Source: Alkalinema sp. FACHB-956 (GTDB lineage: Bacteria; Cyanobacteriota; Cyanobacteriia; Leptolyngbyales; Leptolyngbyaceae). Taken from it: a stretch of 64,000 bases of DNA. A model generated the notes under the pieces. The model did no database searches. It saw only the letters and a program-made list of their open reading frames with translations, and was not told the origin of the DNA. Shown piece after piece: positions 8,803 through 52,943 of this stretch. The first letter of the stretch is position 1; the number at the start of each line of letters is the position of its first letter. The stretch covers positions 1 through 64,000 of the forward strand of contig NZ_JACJRC010000021.1 of NCBI RefSeq assembly GCF_014697025.1, read 5' to 3'. The translations under genes and the position numbers were made by a program.

Positions 8803-8899
8803 GGAAATCAGGCTAGAAGCATAGATTTTAAAACTCTTCCTCTAATTTCCTCATATTCTCTCCTGTTCCCCCTTTATTAAGGGGGGCTAGGGGGGATCC
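8766..8899 (+). repeat. MITE-like G/C-tract repeat, copy C, overlapping the NACHT 3' end
   Basis: The left arm (GATCCCCCTAAATCCCCC, then AAAAGGGGGACTTTGA) lies inside the NACHT reading frame and supplies its final residues (EIPLNPPSKGGL) and TGA stop. The right arm (CCCCCTTTATTAAGGGGGG, CTAGGGGGGATC) is downstream. The inner spacer is longer than in copy B. Confidence 0.8.
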
Positions 8900-9041: not shown

Positions 9042-9260
9042 CTAATCCAAAGCCCGATCGCGCTCCATCTTGCTCACGTATTGCCAACTTGAACCCGGCA
9101 CCGGCACCGGGGGACTCCACCGCACCCGATCGCTAAATCGCAACACATACAACTGATTAATCGTAGACTGCACTTCCTCGCGGGTGCCCAAAAGATAAAA
9201 TTGCAGCGGCTTGCGATCGTCCTCGATCGCGCGATCGAGATCGTCAAAACTAGTAAACAT
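9042..9260 (-). CDS. Small conserved protein, 72 aa, paralogue 1 (leader-controlled)
   Basis: The ATG is set by AGGAGAAATCCC immediately before it. The protein aligns without gaps to the 72-residue product at 52374-52592. Shared positions include LQ..L.G..E..Q.TINQL.V.R..DR..WS.P and a QY.S...R.R ending. It is soluble and charged, with no signal peptide or membrane helix. I know of no characterised function. It lies behind a promoter and a long structured leader that are also conserved at the paralogous locus, so its expression is probably controlled through that RNA. It is followed by a strong bidirectional terminator, making it a single-gene transcription unit. Confidence 0.75.
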   Translation of the reverse strand: MFTSFDDLDRAIEDDRKPLQFYLLGTREEVQSTINQLYVLRFSDRVRWSPPVPVPGSSWQYVSKMERDRALD

Positions 9261-9499
9261 GGGATTTCTCCTAAACGTAGAGACAGGAAGAAATCCCAAA
9301 AATTAAAGCCACCCTTTTGCGCAGGACAAGTAGGGTGGCCCGATCGAATGTTAAAATCCGTCTCAGACCGCCTCGCTGGTCACTTCAGCTTGGGGGTTTA
9401 GCTGCCCATTGTTGTTGCAGCAACGTTGGGTAGCGCCTCAATTTTTGGGAACTAAGCTGATTCGAACGGCAGTAGAAATTCGATCGAAAACAGCTATGA
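9261..9499 (-). ncRNA. Structured 5' leader / candidate regulatory RNA, copy 1
   Basis: Compared with 52115-52373, three helices are conserved. P1: GCTACCCA with TGGGCAGC (9427-9434 and 9401-9408). P2: CCCCC-GCTG with CAGC-GGCGG (9392-9396, 9386-9389, 9375-9378, 9368-9372). P3: GCCACCC with GGGTGGC (9333-9339, 9308-9314), followed by TTTAATTTTT and so terminator-like. A single-stranded block ATTTTAACATTCGATCG between P2 and P3 is identical in both copies. P1 uses different bases in the two copies but still pairs. The Shine-Dalgarno and ATG follow P3 within about 50 bases, which suggests attenuation. No match to a riboswitch class I know (TPP, cobalamin, glutamine and others) was recognised. 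The 5' end is inferred from the promoter. Confidence 0.7.
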
Positions 9500-9592: not shown

Positions 9593-9789
9593 TACCAAAT
9601 TGATTGATCACTGCTACAGATCCGATCCCCCCTAGCCCCCCTTAATAAGGGGGGAACAGGAGAAAATCAAAGACAGTTAGAGAATAACAAATAAAATCTC
9701 TAATTTAAGACTGGTTTTACTCAAATTCCCCCTTTTGAAGGGGGATTTAGGGGGATCGTTATGTTTTGCAATCACAAGTTGATTTGGTC
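9593..9789 (-). repeat. MITE-like G/C-tract repeat, copy D (reverse orientation)
   Basis: Bounded by TACCAAATTGATTGAT on the left and AAGTTGATTTGGT on the right, with both CCCCCC/GGGGGG hairpin arms. The central spacer is about 50 bp longer than in copy B and resembles the spacer of copy C (AATCTCTAATTT-like sequence), so C and D form a subfamily. Confidence 0.8.
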
Positions 9790-51865: not shown

Positions 51866-52018
51866 GATGAGATCCCCCCTAGCCCCCCTTAAAAAGGGGG
51901 GAATTCAGTCAAATTCTTTCAAAGTTCCCCTTTTTCTTGGCGTAGCCTCTCCGAAGGAGATAGGGGGATTTGGGGGGATCGTTATGGGTCGCAATGAGAA
52001 ATTGATTGGGTCTCAATC
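51866..52018 (-). repeat. MITE-like G/C-tract repeat, copy F with nested insertion
   Basis: Both arms are present in reverse orientation (GATCCCCCCTAGCCCCCC with AAAAAGGGGGG, and the CCCC/GGGG arm). The second arm is split by a 25-base insert (51936-51960, CTTGGCGTAGCCTCTCCGAAGG...), a palindromic motif that I recognise as another common cyanobacterial repeat. Confidence 0.75.
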
Positions 52019-52079
52019 AGTTTTGCTTGGGGGTGGGAGGAGGTAATAAATGATACCTGGCAAATTTTTGAAATACGGA

Positions 52080-52108
52080 TTGACAGGAGCTTTAGTTCTT
52101 CGTAGGCT
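52080..52108 (+). promoter_or_regulatory. Sigma-70-type promoter of the 72-aa gene, copy 2
   Basis: TTGACA (52080-52085), a 17-base spacer and TAGGCT (52103-52108). Hexamers and spacing equal those at 9534-9506, while most of the spacer differs. Confidence 0.8.
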
Positions 52109-52114
52109 TGTTTT

Positions 52115-52373
52115 TCATAGCGGCTCCGTGGACATCCTTCTTTGATGAAATGGGTTGGCATGAAGCACGGGGACGCTGGGATCCTGAAAATTTAGGGCAC
52201 TACCTGGGATTGCGCGAACAACCCCAAGTAGCTATCCCCCTCGCTGGTCGTGCAGCAAGGAGGCTTGTTGAGAATTTTAACATTCGATCGAGCCACTCTT
52301 GTTTGTGATGTCAAACGGGGTGGCTCTAAATTTTTGGGCTTTCTTCCGATTCACTACAGGAGAAGCTCACATT
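52115..52373 (+). ncRNA. Structured 5' leader / candidate regulatory RNA, copy 2
   Basis: Homologous to the leader at 9499-9261. P1: CTACCTGGG with CCCAAGTAG (52200-52208 / 52223-52231). P2: CCCCC-TC-GCTG with CAGC-AA-GGAGG (52236-52246 / 52253-52263). P3: GAGCCAC with GTGGCTC (52290-52296 / 52320-52326), followed by TAAATTTTTGGG. In P1 and P3 paired bases differ from copy 1 yet pairing is kept, while the P2-P3 linker is unchanged. AGGAG and the ATG of the 72-codon gene follow P3. The first ~75 nt of the two leaders are not alignable except the initial bases. The 5' end is inferred. Confidence 0.7.
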
Positions 52374-52592
52374 ATGGCGAAAGGTTCTAGCGATCGGAGC
52401 GATCGTTCGGTTGAACATGAGAAACAACGCTTACAGATCCACTTAATCGGTCATCAAGAATTTATTCAGGATACGATTAATCAATTGCATGTTCATCGGA
52501 TTGCAGACAGGATTCACTGGAGTCAACCAATGAAGATTGTCCATTCCGACGGGCAATACATCAGCATCCTCAGTCGCGAACGTCTGCGGTAA
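52374..52592 (+). CDS. Small conserved protein, 72 aa, paralogue 2 (leader-controlled)
   Basis: The ATG is preceded by ACAGGAGAAGCTCACATT. The N-terminal 18 residues are Ser/Asp/Arg-rich and differ from the paralogue. From LQIHLIGHQEFIQDTINQLH onward it aligns without gaps to the product at 9042-9260 (shared INQL, R..DR..WS.P, QY.S). No membrane or signal segment. Function unknown. As at the other locus, the gene stands alone behind its leader RNA. Confidence 0.75.
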   Translation: MAKGSSDRSDRSVEHEKQRLQIHLIGHQEFIQDTINQLHVHRIADRIHWSQPMKIVHSDGQYISILSRERLR

Positions 52593-52943
52593 TGGTGTAG
52601 TATCGGTGTCCCGCAGGTTTGTTTGTCTGACAGTCTGTGGGAACACTCGATATTACGATTAATTTCCTGTCTTAAAGATTTTATGAACAAAGGTACTGGC
52701 ATTGGAAGAGACGTTATACTGCAATTAGTCAGCCTAAGATCACAAATTAGGTGTTAGATAGACATTGTGCTACTTAATCGCCTTTTTGGGGTTAGATGGA
52801 AATATTTCTGACTGAAACTCTAATTTGGGATGTTAGGTAGACTCAATTCTATCCGACAATAAGCTATGCTGCCCCTGGCACTTGATCTGCTCTCTTGAAT
52901 CATATTCAAAAATTTTTCGTGTATAAGTAAGATTAGAGTGTTT
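52593..52943. other. AT-rich intergenic region
   Basis: No gene seen. Two imperfect copies of AATTAGGTGTTAGATAGAC / AATTTGGGATGTTAGGTAGAC occur about 80 bases apart (near 52750 and 52823). AT-rich composition starts at about 52640 and continues to about 54415. Confidence 0.45.

Follow-up and report, generated by a model that had tools for sequence, protein, structure and literature searches.

A structured RNA class absent from Rfam 15 with 77 copies in Alkalinema sp. FACHB-956, and its possible role as a translational switch

We analysed the first 64,000 nucleotides (nt) of contig NZ_JACJRC010000021.1 of Alkalinema sp. FACHB-956 (the window), which carry two copies of a unit consisting of a promoter-like site, a structured RNA of about 155 nt and a gene of 72 codons, with copy 1 on the minus strand and copy 2 on the plus strand. 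Our results support the RNA as a structured class absent from Rfam 15, and its structure and its family are about as certain as sequence alone allows. The best-supported function is an orphan cis-acting translational switch, to which we would give an even chance. An earlier note, made from the letters of the window, had described the duplicated unit; that observation is real and understated, as the unit is indeed duplicated but occurs in 77 copies in the genome, not two. Its interpretation is partly supported. The features of the two window copies are as follows.

52080-52085 and 52103-52108, plus strand: TTGACA and TAGGCT separated by N17, promoter-like site of copy 2 (read directly)
9534-9529 and 9511-9506, minus strand: TTGACA and TAGGCT separated by N17, promoter-like site of copy 1 (read directly)
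52183-52338, plus strand: RNA core of copy 2 (covariance-model match 52184-52338, 143.4 bits; covariation)
52183-52194 / 52327-52338, plus strand: closing helix P0 of copy 2
52200-52212 / 52219-52231, plus strand: helix P1 of copy 2
52236-52246 / 52253-52263, plus strand: helix P2 of copy 2
52272-52275 / 52282-52285, plus strand: small hairpin P2b of copy 2
52290-52298 / 52318-52326, plus strand: helix P3 of copy 2
9294-9449, minus strand: RNA core of copy 1 (covariance-model match, 154.5 bits)
52336-52368, plus strand: predicted hairpin P4 of copy 2, GGGCUUUCUUCC (52336-52347) with GGAGAAGCUC (52359-52368) (L019; -10.6 kcal/mol, z -2.8)
9261-9297, minus strand: predicted hairpin P4 of copy 1, GGGAUUUCUUCC (9297-9286) with GGAGAAAUCCC (9271-9261) (L018; -17.6 kcal/mol, z -5.2)
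52374-52592, plus strand: gene of copy 2, 72 codons, small protein of no known family
9042-9260, minus strand: gene of copy 1, 72 codons

Structure and distribution of the RNA

Direct reading of both copies bore out the TTGACA-N17-TAGGCT site, the 21 common bases CGTAGGCTTGTTTTTCATAGC, the pairing of P1, P2 and P3 and the 72-codon open reading frame (ORF; 52374-52592 and 9260-9042) given in the earlier note. In addition to these helices, we found the long closing helix P0, inside which P1, P2, P2b and P3 are arranged, the small hairpin P2b, and the hairpin P4, which covers the Shine-Dalgarno site. Two earlier details changed accordingly: the 17-base block ATTTTAACATTCGATCG (52274-52290) is identical in the two copies but need not be unpaired, since P2b can form there, and P3 is a hairpin as claimed, but the T-rich run after it is the 3' strand of P0.

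The structure was examined in a MAFFT alignment of 28 leaders, comprising 21 from the genome that contains the window (G000; 6.16 Mb, 59 contigs), the divergent L094 among them, and seven from relatives (L numbers denote loci; L052, L063 and L103 were dropped from the 31 leaders prepared). The P0 strands in this alignment read CCYRAAAAUUUA.. and ..UAAAUUUUUGGG, and P1 has GUUG/CAAC close to its tip. The alignment was made without a covariance model, and 92.3% of its cells were paired, compared with at most 50.3% in slid versions. Both sides had changed in 18 pairs versus 8.7 in shuffled alignments, and the covariation score was 0.235 versus 0.149; the number of pair types was not above the shuffles, 72 of 500 of which reached it. 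A covariance model built afterwards gathered 51 diverse RNAs, in which double changes occurred in 31 of 43 pairs (16.9 in shuffles) and the covariation score was 0.334 (0.163 shuffled, at most 0.079 slid), and 40 more RNAs, drawn from three additional genomes, scored 0.299 versus 0.137. Three points count against the structural model: the 51- and 40-RNA alignments were fitted to the model and are therefore biased towards it, the number of pair types in the 40-RNA set was not above shuffles, and P2b, the weakest helix, was paired in 96% of cells in the 28 leaders and 80% in the 51 RNAs but in only 56% in the 40-RNA set. The P2b loop reads UUUARCA in 25 of the 51 RNAs and may resemble the rRNA boxA element.

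No Rfam 15 family matched the whole window at gathering cutoffs. A search of copy 2 with E up to 5 returned solely a long non-coding RNA match on the opposite strand (E 2.9), and five diverged loci searched with E up to 1 gave no convincing match to the leader; the one match touching a leader was that of a Na+ riboswitch at the end of the L056 leader, on the opposite strand (E 0.86, 21.8 bits, cutoff 40.5). The earlier note had proposed a new class of structured leader and had named an Rfam scan and a look for compensatory changes in homologues as its checks. The idea stands on both, as no known family matched and such changes are present, and it is supported by the missing Rfam match, the compensatory changes in P0, P1, P2 and P3, and the wide distribution of the RNA.

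Allowing two mismatches at most, we found the 17-base block at 53 sites in G000 and the reversed control at one, which puts the block far above chance. At 50 of these sites a recognisable ribosome-binding site and the start codon of one small-protein family follow, L052 among them being interrupted; the other three are L039, whose gene has a variant site, L020, which is cut, and L053, a chance match without a cassette. Searches of the same genome with the small protein found 71 places with a single sequence and 72 with a profile (L020 and L053 had no protein match). Therefore, the window copies belong to a genome-wide family. The covariance model gave 85 matches in G000, which leave 77 copies after removal of eight antisense echoes, and the small gene begins 32-132 nt after the RNA in 66 of them. 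Among the other 11, three lie at contig ends, one is degenerate and seven form subclass III (L157-L163), a set of near-identical RNAs, one cut by a contig end, whose P2 loops are all different and which stand ahead of a 61-62-aa protein with a similar motif, KLQLSG...LHVINFISAHEWS, and with the sequence MTRYTKKIKLQLSG... By eye, L154, L155 and L156 share junction letters with L084, L090 and L074, as cassettes split at contig ends; apparently, these three were cut by repeated insertion elements.

The RNA was also found by the covariance model in 77 of 291 genomes of one class (G000 counted), cyanobacteria to judge by the named relatives, and in 43 of 130 genera, with at most 10 candidates scored per genome. 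Twenty of the 77 carrier genomes recounted with fuller scoring had 4-58 RNA matches and 5-81 protein matches each; the RNA counts of both surveys still contain any antisense echoes. Named carriers include the Leptolyngbyaceae metagenome-assembled genomes RM1_406_9 and SM1_4_3, FACHB-471 and Microseira wollei (locus L149). An RNA outside Rfam 15 that roughly one in four sampled genomes of the class carries, some of them in tens of copies, would rank among the more abundant undescribed cyanobacterial RNA classes.

A possible translational switch

In 65 of 67 own-genome copies and in 25 of 28 copies from other genomes, the 160 nt preceding the core contain a TTGACN-N16-18-TANNNT pattern, at a median distance of 65 nt in the former and at 29-81 nt in the latter. 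Control windows 400-560 nt upstream contained it in 0 of 67 and 0 of 28 cases (three of the 28 windows were empty). This conserved place upstream of the core is what supports the promoter-like site as a putative promoter. The unit would be a self-contained transcription unit with a sigma-70-like promoter, the structured RNA of about 155 nt and the small protein gene, and would be transcribed as such.

As in a riboswitch, a conserved structured domain with compensatory changes lies upstream of a gene. In the branch of the family found in G000, GGGNUUUCUUCC directly 3' of P0 and the Shine-Dalgarno region GGAGAA(G/A)NUCC make up the two arms of the predicted P4, and in copy 2 the GGG at 52336-52338 is common to P0 and P4. 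When P0 closes around the multi-helix domain, the GGG at its 3' end would be occupied and the Shine-Dalgarno site left free; when P0 opens, the GGG may nucleate P4, so that the Shine-Dalgarno site would be paired and ribosomes blocked. A metabolite, an ion, a protein or another RNA could set the output by stabilising or opening the P0 domain. In the branch of copies 1 and 2, the cell would use both states for control in cis, with closed P0 presumably the state that allows translation.

Computed folding is consistent with mutual exclusion of the P0 domain and P4 in the own-genome branch, where they share the GGG at nearly equal energies. The mean z of P4 was -3.2 for the 45 short segments of the own genome and -2.0 (median -1.3) for 21 others, and 59 of 65 own copies had at least 75% of the Shine-Dalgarno site in pairs. 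The base after the GGG covaries with its partner, forming C-G in 34, A-U in 23 and U-A in seven of 65 own copies, one being unpaired; the counts in other genomes are 11 U-A, seven C-G, one A-U, one G-C and one unpaired. The energy with the GGG forced upstream minus that with the GGG forced downstream had a median of 0.3 kcal/mol in own copies, lying within 3 kcal/mol in 59 of 65 of them and in 13 of 21 copies from other genomes (L087 and L093 were excluded from the energy counts, and L127 and L132, with long spacers, from the P4 set). Shuffling of the downstream part alone shifted the median from -0.2 to -4.2 kcal/mol in 23 own copies (every second short one), the real value being higher in all 23, and from 1.4 to -2.7 kcal/mol in 21 others, where it was higher in 20; with a shuffled downstream part the upstream pairing therefore prevails, and the real sequence competes better. 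The start codon lies 32-36 nt past P0 in 43 of 66 own copies and 29-36 nt past it in 21 of 23 copies from other genomes (28 such RNAs less L115, L121, L123, L130 and L135, which lacked a usable gene of the family). Moreover, own copies with long spacers, such as L001, L005 and L008, carry a dispersed CCCTCATCCCCGGCCCTTCTCC-type repeat in the P4 loop with both arms kept.

Several results weigh against this switch. Among the 18 copies of other genomes in which a Shine-Dalgarno site was found, P4 covers it in only seven and lies beside it in the rest, and the energy test forces the GGG alone, not whole helices. In G060, a genome considered further below, no P4 was seen by eye in the 12 loci fetched, and the gene match begins 37-397 nt after the RNA. 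Of 24 named protein loci, 11 have the RNA and 13 lack it, and 11 of 20 protein loci of relatives had no model match, which makes the protein family wider than the leader. Metabolite riboswitches are not known to occur in about 77 copies before one protein family. As for the promoter, a simple sigma-70 consensus scan did not report the TTGACA/TAGGCT pair of copy 2, because TAGGCT has only three of six consensus bases, and the other sites it found were as frequent as chance.

The earlier note had suggested transcription attenuation, in which P3 and the T-run form an intrinsic terminator that yields either a short RNA or read-through into the gene. P3 is strong, conserved and followed by TTTTT, and the 5' strand of P0 extends into the base of P3 by at least 3 bp in 27 of 51 RNAs versus 24% in cross-sequence controls. 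However, the T-run of copy 2 is interrupted (UAAAUUUUUGGG) and paired in P0, the extra pairing that we found involves the Shine-Dalgarno site instead, and a simple terminator scan of 52000-52700 returned nothing, although P3 would escape a scan that allows loops of no more than 8. We consider attenuation quite unlikely and prefer translational control, because P0 and P4 compete for the GGG and P4 pairs with the Shine-Dalgarno site. The idea of a switching leader is thus retained, but the P3 terminator is less supported as the switch point than ribosome access set by P0 versus P4. The proposed P0/P4 switch also offers point mutations for immediate testing.

Proteins behind the RNA and the spread of the unit

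The small protein of G000 mostly has 70-75 aa, or 61-62 aa in subclass III, and the other copies aligned reach 110 aa; it has a predicted beta-alpha-beta(-beta) fold (confidence score pLDDT 76.5 and 81.5). No family was found for it in Pfam or NCBIfam, where single members gave chance matches (best E 0.085), or in PADLOC; PHROGs returned families of unknown function alone (best E 0.0065). Against the PDB, no match was found by sequence, and the best match by fold had a Foldseek E of 0.08 or a VIA-align Z of 4.4 with a root-mean-square deviation of 12.5. Rows that might suggest kinship with PII, ACT or S10/NusE reflect common alpha/beta arrangements and were rejected as evidence. One protein queried against phage records found no match. 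A profile scan of contigs with the own-genome protein alignment confirmed no locus, and a scan with one protein from another genome gave 18 named loci.

Nearest-neighbour comparison of 69 genes indicated purifying selection, with a median ratio of nonsynonymous to synonymous divergence (dN/dS) of 0.12 at a dS of 0.31. With this ratio, and with in-frame stops in the own genome confined to L052 and the fragment L093, decaying selfish repeats were rejected. About 70 copies of a protein without a Pfam or NCBIfam entry are kept under selection in one genome. A mobile or gene-converted cassette, whose RNA would serve copying and not control of a host gene, is very unlikely in our judgement. It would account for 77 dispersed copies, for nearest copies that are mostly alike from about the promoter to just beyond the gene with few longer flank matches, and for the contrast between 77 copies in G000 and the 0-11 RNA matches of each genome sampled from the same family (part of them scored for at most 10 per genome). 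In contrast, the protein is under strong purifying selection, the copies are old (nearest-neighbour dS about 0.31), and no transposase or recombinase was seen in the unit.

Leaderless relatives of the protein occur on Nostocales plasmids (L165-L170), where ParG, a helix-turn-helix protein or a tyrosine recombinase is a neighbour of some of them, and the RNA was not found at the six such loci examined. In the own genome, L092 (C1:822430) encodes a divergent relative with a longer N-terminal part and has no RNA match upstream.

A second protein family stands behind the RNA in G060. This genome has 58 RNA matches but just nine small-protein matches, and 40 of its 47 genes of another family, of 115-129 aa, lie 37-397 nt downstream of the RNA, whereas 200 random shifts gave a mean of 0.36 and a maximum of 3 for the same count. 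Many of the weaker G060 RNA matches score only 25-45 bits, but are supported by their place before these genes. Homology of the two protein families was rejected (hhalign probability 0.1%), and searches of three other genomes (G000, G103 and G153) did not find the 115-129-aa family. Therefore, the RNA is not the private leader of one protein. The 47 matches of this second family (L171-L182 among the loci) share the motif GIPxxLILRFEQWA..FVHRxDRGGQFISYR, with no significant Pfam match. The L174 RNA precedes a winged-helix-like ORF instead (Pfam HTH_IclR, E 3e-4, just below the cutoff).

Hypervariable loops and related systems

Nearly every copy has P1 and P2 apical loops of its own. Among 65 own copies we counted 53 distinct P1 and 56 distinct P2 loops with a pattern that shortened some P1 loops, and a better pattern gave 52 and 55 among 64 copies (L052, L087 and L093 were excluded from the loop counts). 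Between nearest neighbours chosen by leader and gene, the P1 and P2 loop distances were 0.48 and 0.55. The corresponding value for fourfold synonymous sites was 0.27, and it fell to 0.04 for the remainder of the RNA and to 0.02 for the apex of P3. Loops exceeded fourfold sites in 42 of 47 such pairs (p 2e-8), in 30 of 45 pairs of neighbours chosen by leader alone (p 0.002) and in 21 of 30 pairs from three other genomes (p 0.005; two of the 40 loci of that set had no protein match), p values that are too small because pairs share members. In subclass III the distances were 2% in the rest of the RNA, 34% and 51% in the loops and 25% at fourfold sites.

Free drift is the simple explanation of this variability and copy-specific addressing the bold one. 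Under the latter, each copy would produce a short RNA acting in trans, whose P1 and P2 loops serve as an address specific to that copy, either by base-pairing with other nucleic acids or through recognition by a partner, the protein being a co-factor or a product; we regard this as unlikely. The variable loops, their distances above fourfold sites in the own genome, subclass III and three other genomes, and the unrelated protein family behind the same RNA in G060 are in line with it. So is a slight recurrence of same-strand loop 6-mers close to the own unit, within 60-80 nt or in its 5' part (9 versus 4.2, 7 versus 3.0 and 12 versus 6.7 in permuted data), an excess that is marginal, with permutation fractions of 0.04-0.05 in 20 uncorrected tests. 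On the other hand, loop matches to 400-nt flanks showed no excess, nor did those of reverse complements, and loops do not pair mutually (at least four P1-loop/P2-loop pairs in 15% of copies versus 17% across copies). Loop inversion was likewise rejected as the source of the variability, the loops not being inverted copies. No target turned up, and no genome-wide target search was made. The excess of loop distances over synonymous sites is modest with leader-alone neighbours and in other genomes, so that relaxed constraint on apical loops could suffice. It is similarly doubtful that these units make up a high-copy RNA-protein system with loop addresses acting in trans and a partner protein interchangeable between lineages, the beta-alpha-beta-beta protein here and the unrelated 115-129-aa protein elsewhere. 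Because the loops vary so much, a role in trans can be put to a direct test.

Several known systems resemble the unit in part. The Downstream-peptide RNA (RF01704) and the related glnA RNA (RF01739) are known as glutamine riboswitches. Neither matched the window at gathering cutoffs, copy 2 with E up to 5 or the five diverged loci with E up to 1. Downstream-peptide RNA is described as a structured cyanobacterial leader before small ORFs of 17-100 aa of no known family, with 634 examples (PMC2864571). It is the closest described system found, sharing with our RNA the place of a structured cyanobacterial leader ahead of small ORFs without a known family. It differs from the RNA described here in the latter's P0-closed hairpins, P4 over the Shine-Dalgarno site, about 77 copies per genome and hypervariable loops. 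The RNA is undescribed in the titles and abstract beginnings searched, a scope that leaves preprints and most subscription papers outside.

Orphan riboswitches with translational platforms set a closed multi-helix domain against a hairpin that sequesters the Shine-Dalgarno site with the same bases. The P0 domain and P4 would likewise compete for the same bases, but here tens of copies precede one small family, and an unrelated protein follows the RNA in another lineage. Type III toxin-antitoxin systems of the ToxIN kind consist of a promoter, a structured RNA, a terminator-like hairpin and a small protein gene, the order of parts seen in our unit. Unlike them, the copy 2 leader has no tandem repeat (52060-52600 searched), and no toxin family was found by PADLOC, Pfam or NCBIfam, including the ToxN/CptN/AbiQ type downstream, with PADLOC's coverage of these toxins not checked. 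IS110 elements are dispersed units in which a structured RNA, the bridge RNA, carries two variable loops and precedes the gene, and our units are similarly dispersed with two variable loops and the RNA 5' of the gene. However, our loops have no clear match to flanking DNA apart from the marginal same-strand excess within 60-80 nt, and the IS110 recombinase is far larger than a 72-aa protein.

Further features lie around the window copies. A hairpin comparable to that 5' of the copy 2 core was seen by eye in some other copies. Subgroup-specific blocks lie 5' of the promoter-like site, a GGTATCAAATGATACC-like palindrome in one group and AAATATCACAGGATTGCAA in another (52042-52057 in the window, and for example L005, L026 and L029), and may be operator sites. 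Dispersed repeats of the GATCCCCCCTAGCCCCCCTTAAAAAGGGGG type flank both window copies.

52119-52177, plus strand: 5' hairpin of copy 2, AGCG..CCGTG / CACGG..CGCT (by eye)
52605-52647, plus strand: hairpin 3' of the copy 2 gene, at which the unit may end (by eye)
About 8866-8898, 9623-9655, 9726-9757, 51871-51903 and 51925-51981: flanking dispersed repeats in the window
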